Source: a virus. Taken from it: DNA of 25,191 nucleotides. The translations under genes and the position numbers were made by a program. The notes under the pieces were generated by a model that searched no databases, was not told where the DNA came from, and was given only the letters and a program-made list of their open reading frames with translations. This document shows, piece by piece, positions 19-24,927 of this stretch. Location: the IMG/VR virus record IMGVR_UViG_3300046459_000087, positions 1 to 25,191 of that record; one strand, given 5' to 3'. The stretch's first letter is position 1. The number at the start of each line of letters is the position of its first letter.

Positions 19-34
19 GTCACCGACTCCCTTC
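19..34 (+). promoter_or_regulatory. Phage early promoter-like motif, copy 1
   Basis: Exact copy of GTCACCGACTCCCTTC, the first of nine identical + strand copies. It precedes the nuclease operon. The last eight bases (CTCCCTTC) are perfectly complementary to the Shine-Dalgarno block GAAGGGAG at 56-63, so the two could pair across a 21-base loop if both are transcribed. Promoter function is inferred from position; it does not look like a host -35/-10 pair. Confidence 0.7.
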
Positions 35-1386: not shown

Positions 1387-1448
1387 GCGGTCCGAACTGT
1401 CTTTGCAACCCTCAGAAGTCTGGTCTGTGCGGTAGCTGCGGGGGCTAG
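1383..1448 (+). CDS. Cys-rich micropeptide (21 aa)
   Basis: A 21-codon ORF whose ATG overlaps the upstream stop (ATGA). AAGGAGG lies at 1366-1372, ten bases before the start. It encodes four cysteines at residues 6, 8, 16 and 19 (CLC and CGSC), spaced like a minimal zinc knuckle or ribbon. Its TAG stop ends on the first base of promoter copy 2. It may be a metal-binding peptide or a fragment of a longer zinc-ribbon protein; expression is inferred only from the ribosome site and overlap. Confidence 0.45.
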   Translation: MSGPNCLCNPQKSGLCGSCGG

Positions 1449-1463
1449 TCACCGACTCCCTTC
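1448..1463 (+). promoter_or_regulatory. Phage early promoter-like motif, copy 2
   Basis: Exact GTCACCGACTCCCTTC immediately after the micropeptide stop. It lies 34 bases before TTG 1498. The bases after it (GTGG, then AC) resemble those after copy 5. The downstream ribosome site is GAAGGAGAG, only partly complementary to the motif. Confidence 0.68.
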
Positions 1464-1786: not shown

Positions 1787-1802
1787 GTCACCGACTCCCT
1801 TC
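1787..1802 (+). promoter_or_regulatory. Phage early promoter-like motif, copy 3
   Basis: Exact GTCACCGACTCCCTTC right after a terminator, as expected of a promoter that restarts transcription. It serves the RDF gene through an unusually long (about 80-base) leader. Confidence 0.7.
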
Positions 1803-3123: not shown

Positions 3124-3136
3124 ACTCACGGTGAGT
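3124..3136. promoter_or_regulatory. Operator palindrome a
   Basis: ACTCAC-G-GTGAGT followed by AGG, with a one-base centre. It sits between a terminator and the start of the 3145 gene and overlaps that gene's ribosome site region (AGGTAGGA). A bound repressor here would block initiation or elongation. Confidence 0.65.
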
Positions 3137-3330: not shown

Positions 3331-3742
3331 GCCGAAGTGCCCGTGCCAGCCGTGCCGCAACAGGCGCCGGAAGGGGTACATCAAGGACTATTACCGGAAG
3401 CTTCCGCCGGACAAGCGCCACACGCTGAGTCAGAAGCGGCGGGCAACCGCGTACGGCGTTGAACATGCGGAGTACAGCCGTGCCGCGATCATGCGCCGTT
3501 GGGGCTACCGCTGCGCCTACTGTGACGCGCGCGCTGAGCATCTTGACCACGTCCACCCGCTGAGCAAGGGCGGCGCTGACGCTGAGCACAACATGGTGCC
3601 GGCGTGCGCGAAGTGCAATCTGTCGAAGGGTGCGAAGACGCTTGCTGAGTGGTCGCTGACGTTCGGTCCGAAGCCGGCAGGTCACCGACTCCCTTCTGAG
3701 CCCGCGAAGGACGAGAGAAGGGAACCACCGTGGAGTTCGTAG
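3320..3742 (+). CDS. HNH endonuclease (140 aa)
   Basis: HNH/ββα-metal nuclease. CAYC and CAKC flank HLDHVHPLSKGGADAEHNMVP, which gives the catalytic His pair and Asn plus two CxxC structural zinc half-sites. A further Cys group (CPCQPC) lies near the N-terminus. GTG 3320 is the chosen start; the frame opens at 3293 but no better start is visible. The last 15 or so codons contain promoter copy 4 and run 13 bases into the primase gene, so the C-terminus (HRLPSEPAKDE) is coding DNA that doubles as regulatory DNA. It may be a free-standing homing-type nuclease or a recombination helper. Confidence 0.75.
   Translation: MAHEPKCPCQPCRNRRRKGYIKDYYRKLPPDKRHTLSQKRRATAYGVEHAEYSRAAIMRRWGYRCAYCDARAEHLDHVHPLSKGGADAEHNMVPACAKCNLSKGAKTLAEWSLTFGPKPAGHRLPSEPAKDERREPPWSS
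3681..3696 (+). promoter_or_regulatory. Phage early promoter-like motif, copy 4 (inside HNH gene)
   Basis: Exact GTCACCGACTCCCTTC embedded in the 3' coding end of the HNH gene, 34 bases before GTG 3730. The downstream GAAGGG (3717-3722) can pair with CCCTTC of the motif. Its perfect conservation inside coding sequence argues for selection on the DNA motif itself. Confidence 0.7.
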
Positions 3743-6147: not shown

Positions 6148-6163
6148 GTCACCGACTCCCTTC
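6148..6163 (+). promoter_or_regulatory. Phage early promoter-like motif, copy 5
   Basis: Exact GTCACCGACTCCCTTC, four bases after the primase stop. CTCCCTTC can pair perfectly with the polymerase ribosome site GAAGGGAG at 6178-6185, with a 14-base loop. This is the clearest example of motif and Shine-Dalgarno complementarity. Confidence 0.7.
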
Positions 6164-8043: not shown

Positions 8044-8083
8044 ATCGGGCGTGTTTGGTAACGCGCGTATAACGATCGAAGGT

Positions 8084-8096
8084 ACTCACGATGAGT
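8084..8096. promoter_or_regulatory. Operator palindrome b
   Basis: ACTCAC-GA-TGAGT followed by AGGT: the 13-bp class with one half-site base changed. It lies in the gap after the polymerase gene, just before a GC-rich hairpin. Confidence 0.55.
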
Positions 8097-8126
8097 AGGT
8101 CACTCCGCTTCTGAAAGACGATCAAA

Positions 8127-8159
8127 GCCCCGTTACCTGTAAAGGGAAGGTAACGGGGC
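8127..8159 (+). terminator. Terminator-like hairpin after DNA polymerase
   Basis: A perfect 12-bp stem (8127-8138 with 8148-8159) with a nine-base loop. No T tail follows, so it may be a weak or bidirectional terminator or an RNA stabiliser. Confidence 0.6.
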
Positions 8160-8278
8160 CCCTGGCATATGCCTGATTCGTACATCCAAAGGATGAGACG
8201 GGGTCACGCCTTCGAATCCCTGTAACCCCCTTCCGGCCCGTGCGGGTCATCACGGGTGCCCGGACGGAAATCGAACCT

Positions 8279-8290
8279 ACTCACGTGAGT
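8279..8290. promoter_or_regulatory. Operator palindrome c
   Basis: Perfect 12-bp palindrome ACTCACGTGAGT preceded by CCT, the zero-spacer class. It lies just before the 39-codon ORF and about 200 bases before the sigma-like gene. Confidence 0.65.
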
Positions 8291-8301
8291 GTGTTCGGGT
8301 T

Positions 8302-8421
8302 ATGTTCGAGCTGCACGACGGACCGGAACTGATCAACCCCCGTCGGCAAGAGTCGGTGACCTTGATTGGTTGCCCTCACCTGCCCGCACGTGGGGTGAGC
8401 CTTGCCGTGAAGCGGTTGTGA
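8302..8421 (+). CDS. Possible small protein (39 aa)
   Basis: ATG 8302 to TGA 8421. It encodes a 39-residue peptide starting MFELHDGPELINPRRQ, with no recognisable ribosome site. Operator c is only 11 bases upstream. Third positions are not strongly GC-biased. It may be a leaderless or spurious ORF; no function assigned. Confidence 0.25.
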   Translation: MFELHDGPELINPRRQESVTLIGCPHLPARGVSLAVKRL

Positions 8422-8433
8422 CGCACTCCGTCG

Positions 8434-8482
8434 CTCCCTAAGTCACCGACTCCCTTCAACCGGAATCAAACGACTTAGGGAG
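8434..8482 (+). promoter_or_regulatory. Phage early promoter-like motif, copy 6, framed by an 11-bp inverted repeat
   Basis: The motif GTCACCGACTCCCTTC is at 8442-8457. It is framed by CTCCCTAAGTC (8434-8444) and its perfect complement GACTTAGGGAG (8472-8482), whose end is the ribosome site for ATG 8490. No other copy has this extra symmetry, which suggests special control of the sigma-like gene. Confidence 0.7.
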
Positions 8483-8489
8483 TCACCCC

Positions 8490-9680
8490 ATGCTGTCCTT
8501 CGACACCATCAAGGCCGCGCAGAACCACGACGAACTGTCCGCCCGTCTGAACGCTCAGCGGGAAGTGATCGAGCACATCGAGTCGCGCGTGATCTCCCTC
8601 GCTGACAAGGCGGCGCGCCGCATGGCCCCCCACGGTGGTGCCCGTTACGCGGACTACCGTGACGAGTTCGCTCAGGTTGGCCGCATCGCTGCGTTCGAGG
8701 TTCTGGACCGGTTCACCGACACGACCGTTGACGCGTTCGAACGCCTCGTGTACACGACGGTTCAGCGCACGCTGTTGGACGCTGTTCGCGCCGAACGGAA
8801 CTTCGGGGCTGACGACAAGGCGGTCAAAACGTTCGCTTCCATGCTTGAGGTTGCTGACGACGACATGTTCGAAGCGATGCGGCTTGCGCAGACTGTCCCG
8901 CCGAAGGGAAGCGGCTACCGGCTGAGCGCTCAGCGTGCCAATGCGGCTCGTCTCGCGTGGCTGGGCGCCGTTTCCATCGACAAGGTCGCGGGACCCGGTG
9001 GTGACCAGCATGGGGGCGGCTCGATCGCTGACACGCTTGCGCACCACGACGAAGAGGTTGACGGCGAGATTCGCCCGAAGGTTGGCCGGGGCGCCGTGAT
9101 CGAAGCCGTCACCGTGATCGCGCGGTACGTGACTGTCCCGAAGGATGAGAAGAGCCGCACGGCACTCGCTGAGGCGCTTGAGGTGTTCCGCACGGGGTTC
9201 GGCAACGGGCACGACCTTGAGGCGCTTGAGGACGTCATCAGCGTGCCGCGTGACCCCAACACCCGCCGCTACGTGCTCGACGCCATGGCCGTTCTCGCTG
9301 CCGCTGTTTCCACTGCCACGGAAGGCGCCGTTGACGACGAGCTGATGGGCGCTTCGGACGTTCGCCGCGCTGACGACTCCGCGAAGCACGCACGTGTGAA
9401 CTCCGTCCTTGACTCCATGGGCAAGGCACAGCGGGACGTCCTTCGGCACTCGTTCGGCATCGGTGACGTGCTCGATTTCGGGTGGGGCGACGGGTGTGAC
9501 CTGCCGGGGCTGTGCGAGTTCCTGGGCATGACGTACGACAACGCGAAGCAGCACCGGGCGAAGGGTCGCAAGTCGTTCGCGAAGCGCTACGTGGCCGTTG
9601 TGGGGCTCGACAAGCCCGCCTTTGCCGCTGTCCTTGAAGCCGCTGCCGCCGCGAATCTGACGCGTGGTGGGCGCAAGTAG
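8490..9680 (+). CDS. Divergent sigma-70-like factor (396 aa)
   Basis: Residues about 27-105 read like sigma region 2: RDEFAQVGRIAAFEVLDRF matches the region 2.1/2.2 pattern and FERLVYTTVQRTLLDAVRAERN the region 2.3/2.4 helix. Around residues 158-190, a VSIDKVAGPGG...SIADTLAHHDEE segment resembles the SLD...LGDLL stretch between sigma regions 3 and 4. Residues about 303-370 look like region 4, with LDSMGKAQRDVLRHSFGIGD and a helix-turn-helix LCEFLGMTYDNAKQHRAKGRKSF. The insert before region 4 is unusual. ATG 8490 has AGGGAG seven bases upstream. It would redirect host RNA polymerase, most plausibly to the nine-copy motif that also precedes this gene. It could instead be an anti-sigma or appropriation protein with sigma-like folds. 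Confidence 0.68.
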   Translation: MLSFDTIKAAQNHDELSARLNAQREVIEHIESRVISLADKAARRMAPHGGARYADYRDEFAQVGRIAAFEVLDRFTDTTVDAFERLVYTTVQRTLLDAVRAERNFGADDKAVKTFASMLEVADDDMFEAMRLAQTVPPKGSGYRLSAQRANAARLAWLGAVSIDKVAGPGGDQHGGGSIADTLAHHDEEVDGEIRPKVGRGAVIEAVTVIARYVTVPKDEKSRTALAEALEVFRTGFGNGHDLEALEDVISVPRDPNTRRYVLDAMAVLAAAVSTATEGAVDDELMGASDVRRADDSAKHARVNSVLDSMGKAQRDVLRHSFGIGDVLDFGWGDGCDLPGLCEFLGMTYDNAKQHRAKGRKSFAKRYVAVVGLDKPAFAAVLEAAAAANLTRGGRK

Positions 9681-9720: not shown

Positions 9721-9736
9721 GTCACCGACTCCCTTC
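9721..9736 (+). promoter_or_regulatory. Phage early promoter-like motif, copy 7
   Basis: Exact GTCACCGACTCCCTTC. The next seven bases (ATGGCCC) are also identical to those after copy 8. AAAGGAG and ATG 9763 follow. Confidence 0.7.
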
Positions 9737-9987: not shown

Positions 9988-10073
9988 GCCCCGGTAGCTC
10001 AACGGAAGAGCATCCCGACCTAGGGCCCGTAAGGGTGCAAGGGACGACGCGGGTTCGAATCCCGTCCGGGGCA
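9988..10073 (+). tRNA. tRNA-like gene with abnormal anticodon arm
   Basis: Acceptor stem GCCCCGG (9988-9994) pairs perfectly with CCGGGGC (10066-10072). The D-arm (GCTC/GAGC) and T-arm (GCGGG TTCGAAT CCCGT) are textbook. Between D- and T-arms lie 37 bases that do not form a normal anticodon arm plus variable loop. TCCC and GGGA can close the arm, but around a 24-base loop that contains its own CCC-GTAA-GGG mini-hairpin. No loop has the usual U before an anticodon, so I cannot name an amino acid. No CCA is encoded. Possibly a decayed or insertion-bearing tRNA, or a tRNA mimic. Confidence 0.6.
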
Positions 10074-15215: not shown

Positions 15216-15231
15216 GTCACCGACTCCCTTC
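15216..15231 (+). promoter_or_regulatory. Phage early promoter-like motif, copy 8
   Basis: Exact GTCACCGACTCCCTTC plus the ATGGCCC extension shared with copy 7. GTG 15239 begins only eight bases after the motif ends. Confidence 0.7.
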
Positions 15232-18902: not shown

Positions 18903-18918
18903 GTCACCGACTCCCTTC
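18903..18918 (+). promoter_or_regulatory. Phage early promoter-like motif, copy 9
   Basis: Exact GTCACCGACTCCCTTC with no ORF or ribosome site behind it: the next gene is tRNA-Asp 116 bases on. CCGTCGCT lies six bases upstream, as at copy 6. This copy shows that the motif is not merely a translation element. Confidence 0.72.
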
Positions 18919-19768: not shown

Positions 19769-19827
19769 CGGAGCACGAGACGCAAGCGGGGCACGCACTC
19801 CCTGGCCCACTACGGGTTCTCGTGCAA

Positions 19828-19902
19828 GTGGGTATAGCTCAGCTTGGCCAGAGCACTCCGTTTGGGACGGAGACGTCGTGGGTTCGAATCCCGCTGCCCG
19901 CA
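19828..19902 (+). tRNA. tRNA-Pro (anticodon TGG)
   Basis: A 75-base cloverleaf: acceptor GTGGGTA with TGCCCGC (two G-T wobbles), D-arm GCTC...GAGC, anticodon stem CTCCG/CGGAG around TTTGGGA, T-arm GTGGG TTCGAAT CCCGC. Anticodon TGG reads CCA, a rare Pro codon in high-GC hosts. The acceptor wobbles leave the identity moderately certain. Confidence 0.88.
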
Positions 19903-19923
19903 CAACATAATCAAGGGGTGACT

Positions 19924-20301
19924 ATGGGTGCTCGTTCTGTGTGCTCGACCCCCGGTTGCCCCGTGCTTGTCTATCCTGCCGGCCGATGCGCTGAGTGTGT
20001 GGCTAAGGCTGCTGCTATGCGTCGCGCGCGTGGTGGGAGCACTGCTAAGCGTGGCTACGACAAGGGGTGGCAGCGTACGCGCAAGGCCTACCTAAGGGCC
20101 CATCCGCTGTGTGAGTGCGCTGAGTGTGCTGCTGTGCCTATGCCATTGCGTCAGCCGGCTACTGAGGTTGATCACATTGATGGGCTCGGACCATTGGGCC
20201 CACGTGGTCACGACTGGTCGAACCTCAGGGCCATGACGAAGGCTCATCACTCACGAGAGACAGCGAAGCATCAGCCTGGTGGTTGGAATGATCGCGAATG
20301 A
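19924..20301 (+). CDS. HNH endonuclease next to terminase (125 aa)
   Basis: ATG 19924 with GGGG upstream. N-terminal Cys pairs (CSTPGC, CAEC), then CECAEC and an HNH core EVDHIDGL...HDWSNLRAMTKAHHSRETAKHQ. In HK97-type phages an HNH protein next to the terminase is required for cos cleavage; the position directly before TerS makes this the natural candidate here. It starts 21 bases after tRNA-Pro. The gap that follows holds the possible packaging site. Confidence 0.85.
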   Translation: MGARSVCSTPGCPVLVYPAGRCAECVAKAAAMRRARGGSTAKRGYDKGWQRTRKAYLRAHPLCECAECAAVPMPLRQPATEVDHIDGLGPLGPRGHDWSNLRAMTKAHHSRETAKHQPGGWNDRE

Positions 20302-20308
20302 TGTGCAA

Positions 20309-20334
20309 TTTGCATACGTTTGCGATTCGTTTGC
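20309..20334 (+). repeat. Three helically phased TTTGC repeats
   Basis: TTTGC at 20309, 20319 and 20330, spaced 10-11 bases (one helical turn), between HNH and TerS. A fourth TTTGC and an inverted GCAAA follow around 20457-20470. Such arrays are typical of terminase small-subunit binding sites. Confidence 0.5.
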
Positions 20335-20363
20335 TTTCGTGAGCATGGGGTGGGGGGTGACCC

Positions 20364-20407
20364 CTGCCGGCCTAGGGGACCTTGAACGCGGGGGAGGGCG
20401 CCGGCAG
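20364..20407. repeat. Inverted repeat in putative packaging region
   Basis: CTGCCGGC (20364-20371) and GCCGGCAG (20400-20407) enclose 28 G-rich bases. The pair lies centrally in the 191-base gap before TerS, a sensible position for cos or pac. The cleavage point cannot be read from sequence alone. Confidence 0.45.
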
Positions 20408-20492
20408 GTGTGCCCGGTTCAAACACCCGTTTGATCTTGCTGGCACGCGCCGGCACTTTGCACTGCAAACACGCGAACGGAGGTGATCACCC

Positions 20493-20945
20493 ATGCCACG
20501 AGGCGGAGCACGCGTACGATCCGGGCCGGCACCGACCAGTCAGGAGCGGAGCCACAAGGCAGACGCGCAAGGCTGGGTGACCCTCCCCGCTGATGGTCGC
20601 GATGGGTATGAGCCGGCCTTCCCGCTGGCCGATCCGTCGCCGCGTGAGATGCAGCTATGGGAGCGCCTTTGGGAGACACCCCAGGCGACCATGTGGGAGC
20701 AACTTCACCAAGAGTTCGAGGTTGCCTCGTACGTCCGGCTGCTCGTTCGTGCTGAGTCTCCACGGTCCTCCGCGATCGTCTGGGGTCAGGTCAAGCAATT
20801 CGCCGAATCACTCGGTTTGAGCGTGAGCGGTATGCAGCGCAACAAGTGGACCATTGCCCCGGTTGGCCAGGCTGACGATGATGCGCCGGCTGTGTCGGGG
20901 GTGTCGTCGCTGACTGCCCGGCTTAAGGCGGTGGGCGGTGACTGA
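20493..20945 (+). CDS. Terminase small subunit (150 aa)
   Basis: Recognises the packaging site and presents DNA to the large subunit. ATG 20493 has one of the best ribosome sites in the window (CGGAGGTGATC). The middle section (EMQLWERLWETPQATMWEQ, YVRLLVRAESPRSSAIVWGQVKQFAESLGLSVSGMQRNKWTI) is the helical pattern of phage TerS proteins, with an Arg/Gly-rich N-terminus that may touch DNA. It overlaps TerL by eight bases. Assignment rests on fold pattern and position. Confidence 0.82.
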   Translation: MPRGGARVRSGPAPTSQERSHKADAQGWVTLPADGRDGYEPAFPLADPSPREMQLWERLWETPQATMWEQLHQEFEVASYVRLLVRAESPRSSAIVWGQVKQFAESLGLSVSGMQRNKWTIAPVGQADDDAPAVSGVSSLTARLKAVGGD

Positions 20946-22548
20946 CGGTAAGTGCTTGGTGGTCACGCTCGCATGGATCGAGGCTCATGCTGTCATCCCT
21001 GACGGGTTTCGGCAAGGTGAGCCGTTCGAGTTGCTTGCCTGGCAACTCAAGGTAGCAAGCAACATGTACACGGTGCGTGACACGGCGGAAGTCGGTCAGA
21101 AGTCGTCTGCGTTCGTCTACCGGCGCGCGCAAGTGATCATGCCTCAGAAGTCCGGCAAGGGCCCGTTTGCGGCTGCTGTCGTGCTCGCTGAGGCTGCTGG
21201 GCCAACGGTGTTCGCCGGCTTCGCTGAGGGTGGCGAGCGGTACCGCTGCAAGGATCACGGTTGCCCCTGCGGCTGGGTGTACGAGTACGCCGAAGGCGAG
21301 CCCATGGCGGTTCCCCAGCCCACGCCGTTGATTCAGCTCTTGGCCACGTCTGAGGATCAGGTTGCCAACGTCTACAGGCCGCTGGTCGCCATGGTCAAGC
21401 ACGGGTCGCTAGGCGCTGTCATGAGCGTGCGTGAAGGCTTCATGCGGGTAGGCGACGAAGGCCGCATTGACGTCGTGACTTCGTCGGCCCAATCGCGCCT
21501 GGGTAACCCGATTACGTTCGCCATTCAGGATGAGACAGGCACGTACACAGCGACGAACAAGATGATCAAGGTCGCTGAGACGATGCGTCGTGGTCTCGCC
21601 GGCATGTCCGGGCGCAGCATGGAGACGACGAACGCTTACGACCCGTCGGAGTACAGCACCGCGCAGCGCACGCACGAGGGTAAGGCCGAGGACGTTTACC
21701 GGTACTTCCCTCAGGCGCCGGCCACGCTGAGCTACCGAAACAAGGTTGAGCGCCGCCGGATTCATAAGGCTGTGTACGTCGACTGCCCGCATATCGACCT
21801 TGACGCCATTGAGGCTGAGGCCGCTGAGCTTCTTGAGTCGGACCCTGGGCAGGCTGAGCGGTTCTTCGGTAACCGCATCATGGCTGGTCACGGTTCGTGG
21901 CTTGAGGCGGCGCACTGGATATCGCGCGCGAGTGACCGCGAGAAGCCGGCGCCATCGGCATACAAGCTGATGAAGGTTCCGATTGTCCTGGGCTTCGACG
22001 GCTCGGATAGCGACGACTGGACAGGCATTCGCGCTGAGACGCTGGAAGGCTTTCAGTTCACGCCCACATACGGGCCTAGCGACCGCCCTACGGTATGGGA
22101 CCCAGCGGAGTGGGGCGGGCAGGTGCCGCGCCTTGAAGTCGACGCAGCGGTTAGCGAACTGTTCGCGAAGTACGACGTCAAACTCATGTACTGCGACCCA
22201 CCTTATTGGGAAACGGAAGTGGACCAGTGGGCTGAGCGGTACGGAGACAGGCGCGTTGTCCGCTGGCACACTCGCCGGCCGATGCAAATGCACGCTGCCG
22301 CTGAGCGGATCAAGACTGACGTCATTAAGAAGGATTCGAATTTCACGCACGACGGTTGCCCGATTACGGAGCGCCACGTGTTCAACGCGCGTATGGCCGC
22401 GCGTCCGTCTGATCGCTATGTGCTGGCCAAGCCTGAGCACAAACGAAAGATCGACCTTGCGGTTGTCAGTGTGCTCACGCATGAAGCTGCGTGTGACGCG
22501 ATCGCCGCCGGCCTGTTGAAGCGTAAGCCCTTTTACATGTCTGCCTAG
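20938..22548 (+). CDS. Terminase large subunit (536 aa)
   Basis: ATP-driven DNA packaging motor and nuclease. The Walker A-like motif is MPQKSGKGP (residues 68-76, non-standard), Walker B FAIQDE with D198 and E199. The C-terminal RNase H-like nuclease shows GFDGSDSDDW (D354) and YCDPPYW (D420), with DLAVVS near the end. Between Walker A and B there is an unusual Cys/His insert C104-K-D-H107-G-C109-P-C111, likely a small zinc loop. GTG 20938 overlaps TerS. Length and order are normal for an HK97-like head module. Confidence 0.9.
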   Translation: MTDGKCLVVTLAWIEAHAVIPDGFRQGEPFELLAWQLKVASNMYTVRDTAEVGQKSSAFVYRRAQVIMPQKSGKGPFAAAVVLAEAAGPTVFAGFAEGGERYRCKDHGCPCGWVYEYAEGEPMAVPQPTPLIQLLATSEDQVANVYRPLVAMVKHGSLGAVMSVREGFMRVGDEGRIDVVTSSAQSRLGNPITFAIQDETGTYTATNKMIKVAETMRRGLAGMSGRSMETTNAYDPSEYSTAQRTHEGKAEDVYRYFPQAPATLSYRNKVERRRIHKAVYVDCPHIDLDAIEAEAAELLESDPGQAERFFGNRIMAGHGSWLEAAHWISRASDREKPAPSAYKLMKVPIVLGFDGSDSDDWTGIRAETLEGFQFTPTYGPSDRPTVWDPAEWGGQVPRLEVDAAVSELFAKYDVKLMYCDPPYWETEVDQWAERYGDRRVVRWHTRRPMQMHAAAERIKTDVIKKDSNFTHDGCPITERHVFNARMAARPSDRYVLAKPEHKRKIDLAVVSVLTHEAACDAIAAGLLKRKPFYMSA

Positions 22549-22559
22549 AAAGGAGCGCG

Positions 22560-24041
22560 GTGGCTACATACGGTGAAGCACTATCGCTTGTTCAGCTACT
22601 TGAGAACGAGCTAATGAACCGGCGTCCGCGTGTCCAGCGGCATTCGGCGTATTACCAGGGTGAGCAGAAGCTAGCGTTTGCGTCGGATCAGTTTCGGAAG
22701 TTTCACGGTGACCGGTACCGCGATTTCGCGGACAACTGGGTACAGGTAACGTCCGACTCGCCGGTTGAGCGACTGACGGTGAACGGCGTTCTGCCCGCCG
22801 GCATGACCGAGGCTGACAAGGAATCGTGGCGCGTCTGGCAAATGAACGCGCTTGACGCTGACTCGCAACTTGGCTTCCTCGGTGCTGTCAACAGTGGGCG
22901 CAGCTTCGTGCTCGTCTGGGGCAATCCGGATGATCCGGAGACGCCTGAGGTGACGTTTGAGGATGCCTCACAGTGCATTGTCGCGTACGTGCCTGGGTCC
23001 CGCCGGAAGCGCCGTGCCGCGCTGAAACGTTGGGATGATGGGTTTCGCAGTTTCGCCACGCTGTACCTTGCAAACGAGGTGTGGAAGTTCGAGCGGCCGA
23101 TTCTGGGCACGAGCACCAAGACGCCGCAGATGCGCTCCGTTGACAATGAGCTTGACCAGTGGCTACCGCGCGACATGGGTGACGAGCCGAACCCTCAGCC
23201 AAACCCTATGGGCGTGGTTCCGATTGTTGAGCTTCCCAACCGGCCGATGCTGGCGGACGAGCCCGTAAGTGATATCGCGGGTGTGATCGCCATGCAGGAT
23301 GCTGTGAACCTCTTGTGGGCGCAGTTGTTCACCGCTGCTGACTATGCGTCGTTCCCTCAGCGCATCGTCCTGGGTGCCGAGGTTCCGGAAATCCCGATCC
23401 TTGACGAGACGGGCCAGATTGTTGGTTCGCGCCCGGTTGATATGGAACGGTTCGCGGTCGACCGCGTCATGTTCTTCACGGGTGATGACGTCAAGGTCAC
23501 TGAGTGGACTGCGGCGAACCTTGAGGCATACACGAACGTGATGGAAGTGGCCGTGGGTCACATTGCCGCACAGACGCGCACGCCTCAGCATTACCTGATT
23601 GGCAAGATGGCGAATCTGTCCGGTGACGCGCTGTTGGCCGCTGAGACTGGTCTAGTCAAGCGGGTTGAAGAGAAGCAGATTTGGTTTGGTCAGGCGCTCC
23701 GCGAGATGTTCCGGCTGATCGCGCTCGCGCAGGGTGACGACGGTAAGGCGAAGGCCATTGCCGGCGGACGAGTGCTGTGGGCTGACGCCGAATCGCGCAG
23801 TCAGGCACAACAGGCTGACGCACTGCTGAAGCTGAAACAGATCGGGTTCCCTTTCGAGTTCCTGGCGCTGCGCTTCGGCATTACGCCGACTGAGCTAGCC
23901 GACATTCTGCTGATGCGCGAGAAGGAGCTACAGGCTGACCCCATGGGCGCGTTCACGTCGCTGATGGCACGTGATCCGGCGCAGGGAGACACCACGAATG
24001 GCAGCAAGTTGGCGGGCACAGCGGCACCAGCAGCAGCGTGA
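22560..24041 (+). CDS. Portal protein, SPP1 gp6-like (493 aa)
   Basis: Dodecameric ring at the capsid vertex through which DNA passes. GTG 22560 follows GAAAGGAG. The N-terminal RRPRVQRHSAYYQGEQKL segment, the central WGNPDDPETPEVTFEDAS region, and the long helical SSP-like part (IAGVIAMQDAVNLLWAQLFTAADYASFPQR; TRTPQHYLIGKMANLSGDALLAAETGLVKRVEEKQ) are typical of this family. Family-normal length. It overlaps the MuF-like gene by 44 bases in another frame. Confidence 0.9.
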   Translation: MATYGEALSLVQLLENELMNRRPRVQRHSAYYQGEQKLAFASDQFRKFHGDRYRDFADNWVQVTSDSPVERLTVNGVLPAGMTEADKESWRVWQMNALDADSQLGFLGAVNSGRSFVLVWGNPDDPETPEVTFEDASQCIVAYVPGSRRKRRAALKRWDDGFRSFATLYLANEVWKFERPILGTSTKTPQMRSVDNELDQWLPRDMGDEPNPQPNPMGVVPIVELPNRPMLADEPVSDIAGVIAMQDAVNLLWAQLFTAADYASFPQRIVLGAEVPEIPILDETGQIVGSRPVDMERFAVDRVMFFTGDDVKVTEWTAANLEAYTNVMEVAVGHIAAQTRTPQHYLIGKMANLSGDALLAAETGLVKRVEEKQIWFGQALREMFRLIALAQGDDGKAKAIAGGRVLWADAESRSQAQQADALLKLKQIGFPFEFLALRFGITPTELADILLMREKELQADPMGAFTSLMARDPAQGDTTNGSKLAGTAAPAAA

Positions 24042-24927
24042 GGCACTAGCGGACGCTACGGCGCGCGCGGTTCTCGCTGAGTGGGCAAAGGTCAATCCTG
24101 ATGATGTGGCGCGCGATTGGGCGCGTCTGCTTCCGAAGGTTACGGCGTATGTGCAGGCTGGTCAGCTTCACGCGGCTGAGGGCACGCATACATTCATGCG
24201 CGAACTGTTGGGCGCTGACGCTGATCTGAGTCCGCAGATTGTGCCTGAACAGTTCGCATCACAAACGCCCGACGGGCGAGACGCAATGGGTTTGCTCGCA
24301 CGCGCGGTCCCGAATGCGATCACTGCGCGGCGTAAAGGGTTCAGTCCGCGTGCCGCAATGGCTCGTGCCGCTGGGTTCCTTGACATGGTTGTGCGCACTG
24401 TGGTCGCTGACACTGGCCGACAGGCTGATCAGGCGGCGATGGTGGCCAACAAGGGTGTAACCGGCTACGTGCGCGTTGTGGAGCTTCCCGCGTGCTCGCG
24501 GTGCATCATCCTGGCCGGCCGCGAGTACGGCGTTTCCAGCGGCTTTCTGCGGCATCCTCGCTGCGATTGCACGATGGAGCCTGTCACGCGCAAGCACATG
24601 CCGACACCACTTCGGCCGGCCGACCTGTTCGACAGCATGACCCCCGCCCAACGACGCAAGGTCTTTGGCGAAGCCGGGGCGAAGGCGATTCAGGATGGGG
24701 CGCGCATCTCCAGCGTGGTCAACGCTCGCAAGAGTATGGATCGCGTCGAGATGTTCGGGAAGACGGTACAGGTGACGCATGTCGGCACCGGTAGCCGGAA
24801 GAACCCGCGTCCCCCGCGTCTGATGCCGGAGGAGATTTACCGCCTAGCCGAGGCGGAGAACAGTGACCCGAAGGCGCAGCGAGAGCACGCCATTCGACTG
24901 CTGTACAAGAACGGCTATCTCCGCTAG
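23998..24927 (+). CDS. MuF-like minor head protein (309 aa)
   Basis: Head morphogenesis protein usually bound near the portal. ATG 23998 follows GGGAG. The N-terminal third is helical; then comes the family signature CSRCIILAGREY...GFLRHPRCDCTMEPV, with the conserved CxxC and HPxCxC arrangement. The C-terminus is basic and ends YKNGYLR. Some relatives carry a C-terminal toxin or protease; none is visible here. Operator i follows 26 bases after the stop. Confidence 0.83.
   Translation: MAASWRAQRHQQQREALADATARAVLAEWAKVNPDDVARDWARLLPKVTAYVQAGQLHAAEGTHTFMRELLGADADLSPQIVPEQFASQTPDGRDAMGLLARAVPNAITARRKGFSPRAAMARAAGFLDMVVRTVVADTGRQADQAAMVANKGVTGYVRVVELPACSRCIILAGREYGVSSGFLRHPRCDCTMEPVTRKHMPTPLRPADLFDSMTPAQRRKVFGEAGAKAIQDGARISSVVNARKSMDRVEMFGKTVQVTHVGTGSRKNPRPPRLMPEEIYRLAEAENSDPKAQREHAIRLLYKNGYLR

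Follow-up and report, generated by a model that had tools for sequence, protein, structure and literature searches.

In a virus record of 25,191 bases, referred to here over its whole length as the window, we identify by homology a phage-encoded sigma-70-family factor of the phiC31 gp12 family. We propose that this factor, working with the Streptomyces core polymerase, very probably reads nine GTCACCGACTCCCTTC promoters, that of its own gene included, after an initial start by the host polymerase.

The record belongs to a Streptomyces phage, a phiC31 relative by gene order, with genes for an exonuclease, gp3, gp4, an HNH protein, a primase, a DNA polymerase, the sigma factor, gp13 to gp15, ThyX, dCMP deaminase, the gp25-position protein, a serine integrase and tRNAs (Table 1). 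An Rfam scan returned tRNAs only, among them a fourth (9988-10073, 52 bits) that was missed by ARAGORN and lies directly after the gp13 homologue. The packaging genes at 19822-24927 are near those of phage Dubu (terminase 87%, portal 82%, protease 76%) and the early region is phiC31-like, which makes the genome a mosaic; this packaging stretch holds no copy of the motif.

Table 1. Positions in the window of the sigma gene, the regions of its product, the motif copies and the elements of the gap upstream of the sigma gene
Feature	Position	Strand	Basis or remark
Sigma-70 family factor, phiC31 gp12 homologue (396 aa, ATG start)	8490-9680	+	PHROG 15865, TIGR02937, tblastn, PDB profile
Sigma region 2, residues 27-108	8568-8813	+	Sigma70_r2 in 15/15 members; superposition of residues 1-164 model
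Region 3-like segment and region 3.2 linker, residues 109-190 (PPKG..RLS, SID...SIADTL)	8814-9059	+	Family alignments; probable, from position and resemblance
Helical insert, residues 191-287	9060-9350	+	Family alignments, AF2 model
Sigma region 4 with helix-turn-helix, residues 288-374	9351-9611	+	Profile match to RpoD region 4
Motif copy 1, before exonuclease gene (54)	19-34	+	
Motif copy 2, before small ORF (about 1490)	1448-1463	+	
Motif copy 3, before gp3 (recombination directionality factor) homologue (1831)	1787-1802	+	
Motif copy 4, before primase (3730)	3681-3696	+	
Motif copy 5, before DNA polymerase (6193)	6148-6163	+	
Motif copy 6, before sigma gene itself	8442-8457	+	Ends 32 nt ahead of sigma start codon
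Motif copy 7, before gp13 homologue (9763)	9721-9736	+	
Motif copy 8, before gp25-position gene (15239 or later start)	15216-15231	+	
Motif copy 9, before tRNA genes	18903-18918	+	
Operator-like palindrome CCTACTCACGTGAGT	8276-8290		In polymerase-sigma gap; overlaps weak -35 TACTCA 8278-8283
TATGTT, TANNNT -10-like element, 17 nt after TACTCA	8301-8306	+	Candidate host-type promoter
Second operator-like palindrome	8081-8101		Same polymerase-sigma gap

The earlier note had described the protein as a divergent phage sigma factor. The sigma-70 homology holds, but the protein is not an unknown one: it corresponds to phiC31 gp12 (61% identity by tblastn), whose family already bore the name RNA polymerase sigma factor in PHROGs and RefSeq, a name given by homology. 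PHROG 15865, 'RNA polymerase sigma factor', matches the window protein from end to end (E 7.4e-150; residues 1-396 on 1-386 of 386), and the gene follows that for DNA polymerase in all complete phages examined. Taken singly, the window protein misses the curated Pfam and NCBIfam cut-offs, as TIGR02937 (sigma70-ECF) covers residues 23-364 with an E-value of 4.8e-9 and 36 bits (cut-off 42.9), and Pfam Sigma70_r2 gives 0.0031 and 17.7 bits (gathering score 24). The missed cut-off reflects a library threshold rather than a biological defining feature, and the family as a whole supports membership. Sigma70_r2 is matched in all 15 members (the window protein and 14 relatives; best 4.6e-11), and a family profile run against all PDB chains retrieves almost only sigma factors (best 2.3e-7), matching RpoD regions 2 and 4 in the correct order, the FGI signature of region 4 included. 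ECF (group 4) sigma factors have regions 2 and 4 and lack region 3; here, Sigma70_r3 finds a match in one member only (E 0.061), and the alignment shows a segment like region 3 and a linker of the 3.2 type. The relatives themselves depend on the query used, with a single protein recovering only one from the viral contigs and a profile recovering 27; an alignment of the whole family was too divergent for the contig scan.

The domain layout anticipated in the earlier note, a region 2-like part, a linker and a region 4-like helix-turn-helix, is borne out by these comparisons. The first extends over about residues 27-108 according to Sigma70_r2, TIGR02937 and the family profile against the PDB, the SID...SIADTL stretch (residues 162-183) aligns with VSLD...GSLADTL of the relatives, which puts it where sigma factors have the region 3.2 linker, and the helix-turn-helix part (about 288-374) can be aligned with RpoD region 4, its FGI signature included. 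Between linker and region 4 sits an insert of about 95 residues (roughly 191-287), which the phiC31 clade and a number of other relatives possess and the short Rowa, Shaeky and Sycamore types lack; an internal duplication suspected within it was not supported. The earlier note had suggested looking for a sigma fold in a predicted structure. The AlphaFold2 model of the whole protein has a mean pLDDT of 79 and a pTM of 0.32, because of which the placement of its domains is unreliable. Foldseek searches with this model rank sigma factors first (5ipl_F, probability 1.00, E 6.5e-3), with no E-value below 0.001 in the PDB searches, that with residues 1-164 included. Superposed on isolated sigma region 2 structures, the residues 1-164 model gives TM scores of the target of 0.65 (2mao) and 0.72 (8b3z). 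Among viral models, a relative from a Streptomyces phage scores best (7.2e-8), and most of the next matches are phage sigma factors.

The motif GTCACCGACTCCCTTC occurs in nine exact copies, all on the forward strand of the window and none on its reverse strand, at gene junctions that include the sigma gene's own; both the count and the copy ahead of the sigma gene had been reported before and were confirmed here. By chance, 0.2 matches would be expected at 3 mismatches, and none of 100 shuffles reached nine even with 3 mismatches allowed. All but one of the copies lie wholly outside predicted genes, the one at 3681 falling within the 3' end of a listed HNH reading frame. Across 13 phages, 122 sites, in part orthologues of one another and not independent, give a logo that consists of one contiguous block, with no conserved -35 and with no TANNNT or other host-type element conserved beside it. 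A pyrimidine-purine step follows at +24/+25 from the motif start (purine in 98%), and then a purine-rich stretch. The purine of this step is probably the transcription start, about 10 nt past the motif, which would then span about -25 to -10. The lack of a conserved -35 is unusual for a sigma factor with a region 4, and counts against the sigma factor reading the motif.

Comparison across relatives ties the motif to the sigma factor. Phages with a sigma factor at 53-84% carry the window motif at the same junctions, in the variants GTCACC, GTTGCC (phiC31) and GTCGCC (TG1), and the early-promoter element of phiC31 is conserved at the same junctions as the window copies. The window motif is missing from Rowa, Shaeky, Attoomi, Dubu, Sebastisaurus and Sycamore, all with a divergent sigma factor, and most phages of this kind have their own asymmetric repeat instead. 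When the repeat search was seeded with nothing but the sequence ahead of each sigma gene, nearly every relative proved to have a forward-strand repeat ending 29-46 nt ahead of the sigma start codon: GGCATTCGACTCACTA in Rowa, GGCCATCGACTCCCTA in L047 and L052, GGTAACCGACTCGCTA in L044, GGCGTTCGAACCGCTC in L042, CTTAACCAACTCACC in Sycamore and GGGAATCCCCTCCGCTC in Sebastisaurus. The exception is Dubu (27% sigma), which has no such repeat ahead of its sigma gene. The Shaeky motif was noticed only by eye, beside that of Sycamore; k-mer scans of Attoomi, Dubu and Shaeky were swamped by codon repeats and worked better on non-coding DNA only.

Other repeats in these genomes were set apart from the sigma-linked ones. 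We did not accept the palindromic repeats of Dubu, Shaeky and Sycamore as promoter motifs, since they are operator-like and present on the reverse strand as well. Shaeky (L019) and Sycamore (L023) hold many palindromic repeats of the TGACGTTAAGGGGT type on both strands, probably the operator of their repressor. In Sycamore (L023:32707-36919), a further repeat, GAACACGCCGAACGGA, often doubled, lies 17-33 nt before the start codons of small genes and is distinct from the sigma-linked motif.

Sebastisaurus is the sharpest case, in that its sigma factor and motif are different and the rest of its early region is similar. Its polymerase, exonuclease and primase are 72%, 68% and 70% identical to those of the window, and with gp3 included the range is 65-72%, as against 34-36% for its sigma factor; its own motif stands at the corresponding junctions, before the genes for dNMP kinase, exonuclease, gp3, primase, methylase and sigma, the gp13- and gp25-position genes and others. 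More generally, the distance between motifs is correlated with that between sigma factors (r 0.78) and with that between DNA polymerases (r 0.77), and once the polymerase is controlled, the motif-sigma correlation is 0.40 (p 0.001, n = 28 phages), or 0.42 (p 0.018, n = 14) with one phage per sigma cluster. Under the same control, the region 4.2 helix-turn-helix alone gives 0.51 (p 0.0035); the region 3-like segment also tracks the motif (p 0.0045), and region 2 by itself falls short of significance with one phage per cluster (p 0.13). Because region 2 is not significant and the region 3-like segment is, the correlation singles out no one DNA-contacting part, and the idea that only the DNA-binding regions of the sigma factor track the motif was not supported. 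Sigma factor and motif co-occur and co-diverge beyond the DNA-polymerase control. Together with Sebastisaurus, this supports the suggestion of the earlier note that the sigma factor may read the nine-copy motif. Both the link between this sigma factor and the promoters and their lineage-by-lineage co-divergence appear to be new: in the open-licence literature, where absence proves little, we found no report of gp12 function, of a connection of gp12 to the early promoters or of the co-divergence, and we know of no experiment on gp12.

The same data bear on an alternative that we consider unlikely: gp12 would be a sigma factor, but the motif would serve for activation or antitermination and be read by a different co-inherited phage protein that acts with a host sigma. 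A contiguous motif of about 16-20 bp, with no separate -35 and -10, fits an activator or a dedicated polymerase, and with the sigma factor controlled, part of the correlation between motif and DNA polymerase is left over (partial 0.35). The motif-sigma correlation nevertheless survives the converse control, and no TANNNT or other host-type element is conserved next to the motif. Among the window genes compared, those found in all 13 phages are exonuclease, gp3, HNH, primase, polymerase and sigma factor alone, and of these six the sigma factor is the sole transcription-initiation protein and the only one of regulatory type, the repressor gene lying outside the window.

The motif is no signal of the host: across 393 Streptomyces genomes, the GTNNCCGACTCCCTT pattern was counted 0-3 times in each but one. 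That one carries a prophage and is alone in having a sigma factor at 62%, and 11 of its 12 motif copies share one strand, in about 40 kb around the sigma gene. Another genome (G058, 58% sigma) has no GTNNCCGACTCCCTT copy in its prophage, where GTCTCTGACTCCCT is found in 11 copies within 2 mismatches, 33 nt ahead of the sigma start.

Two further readings depart from recognition of the motif by a gp12-type sigma factor. We regard it as very improbable that a phage RNA polymerase, and not the host core with gp12, reads the motif: a contiguous promoter with the start close behind does resemble the promoters of single-subunit polymerases, but, in line with what had been noted from the sequence before, no RNA polymerase gene is seen among the 20 larger window ORFs scanned, and none is annotated in the complete records of phiC31, phiBT1, TG1 and Vash (a PF00940 search gave no match, and neither did its controls). 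That the motif is no promoter at all and serves as a repeat for replication, packaging, recombination or RNA processing, with gp12 acting at some other promoter, is hardly credible, given that near-perfect identity of copies is also found in repeats of other uses but is joined here by a single orientation, a position outside predicted genes in eight of nine cases, a near-constant distance ahead of start codons, the pyrimidine-purine step with its purine-rich stretch, co-divergence with the sigma factor and, reportedly, phiC31 early transcripts that start at highly conserved phage-specific promoters.

The 450-bp gap between the DNA polymerase and sigma genes, strongly conserved in 14 relatives, offers a candidate for how the sigma gene is first switched on. 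Its palindrome CCTACTCACGTGAGT, which matches the phiC31 repressor operator (CIR), overlaps the -35-like element, and TANNNT at the 17-nt spacing is found in 13 of 14 relatives by alignment; a scripted check found an earlier overlapping TANNNT in two of these relatives and none in L038. This arrangement points to a putative host-type promoter that would be blocked by the repressor in the lysogen. The regulon, described earlier as self-contained, is therefore probably not fully so, as the conserved operator-plus-TANNNT suggests a host-polymerase start under repressor control.

Several other features mark this gap and its surroundings. A terminator-like hairpin (AGCCCCGTTACC..GGTAACGGGGC, 8126-8160) follows the DNA polymerase gene and is kept in most relatives, and a near-invariant non-coding block (GCACGACGGACCGGAACTGATCA..CCCCGTCGGCAAGAGTCGG, 8310-8356) separates the operator from the sigma motif in 14 of 14 aligned relatives; a leader hairpin can form in this block, but shows no covariation, and we do not claim it as an RNA structure. 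Nine operator-like palindromes around CTACTCACGTGAGTAG or CTCACGGTGAG occur in the window, at 3125, 8085, 8280, 10875, 13411, 13591, 14003, 19152 and 24955, and resemble the conserved inverted repeats of phiC31.

The homology, the motif with its placement and the co-divergence of sigma factor and motif are shown by the comparisons above; from them we infer how the factor would bind core polymerase and recognise its promoters, where transcription would start, what the host-type promoter would do and in which order these steps would occur. On infection or induction, the host polymerase would start the sigma gene at the operator-controlled TANNNT-type promoter in the upstream gap, so that release of the repressor would allow the first sigma factor to be made. 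This factor would bind the Streptomyces core polymerase and direct it to the nine GTCACCGACTCCCTTC promoters, with transcription starting some 10 nt past each motif and with no conserved -35 taking part. The copy before the sigma gene would give positive feedback, and the others would drive the genes for exonuclease, directionality factor, primase and DNA polymerase, the gp13- and gp25-position genes and the tRNAs. More tentatively, it is possible that the sigma factors of temperate phages form a large family, each with a private contiguous promoter (at about -25 to -10, with no -35), and that some lineages have exchanged all of their ten or more promoters along with the sigma factor; natural orthogonal pairs, and an unusual way of recognising promoters, would be the result.

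phiC31 is the model Streptomyces phage, and integration tools in wide use derive from it. If gp12 reads the early promoters of phiC31, the missing activator of the lytic programme would be named, and the joint change of sigma factor and signal would explain how phiC31-related phages switch on their early genes. If true, the family would further offer many natural sigma/promoter pairs without cross-reading, useful for Streptomyces expression tools, and a clean case of a transcription factor changing together with its whole regulon.

The known systems set these proposals in context. phiC31 gp12, at 61% identity, is like the window sigma factor in family, in its place after the DNA polymerase and in having its own motif ahead, and the phiC31 motif (GTTGCCGACTCCCTTA or ..TTCCTTA) differs from that of the window by few bases. 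phiC31 reportedly has phage-specific early promoters with a repeated conserved element before early genes; this arrangement, like the gene order, is shared with the window, and to our knowledge no factor that reads these promoters has been identified. T4 gp55 and SPO1 gp28 are phage-made sigma factors with cognate promoters that redirect the host core to phage promoters. Those two serve the middle or late genes of lytic phages, whereas the genes here would be early genes of a temperate phage, with a contiguous element and with promoter sequences private to each lineage. With the bacterial factors sigma B, sigma F, WhiG, RpoS and RpoD, the window sigma factor has in common a region 2, a linker and an FGI-type region 4, and it differs from them in its identity of only about 14% in fold alignments and in the insert of about 95 residues before region 4.
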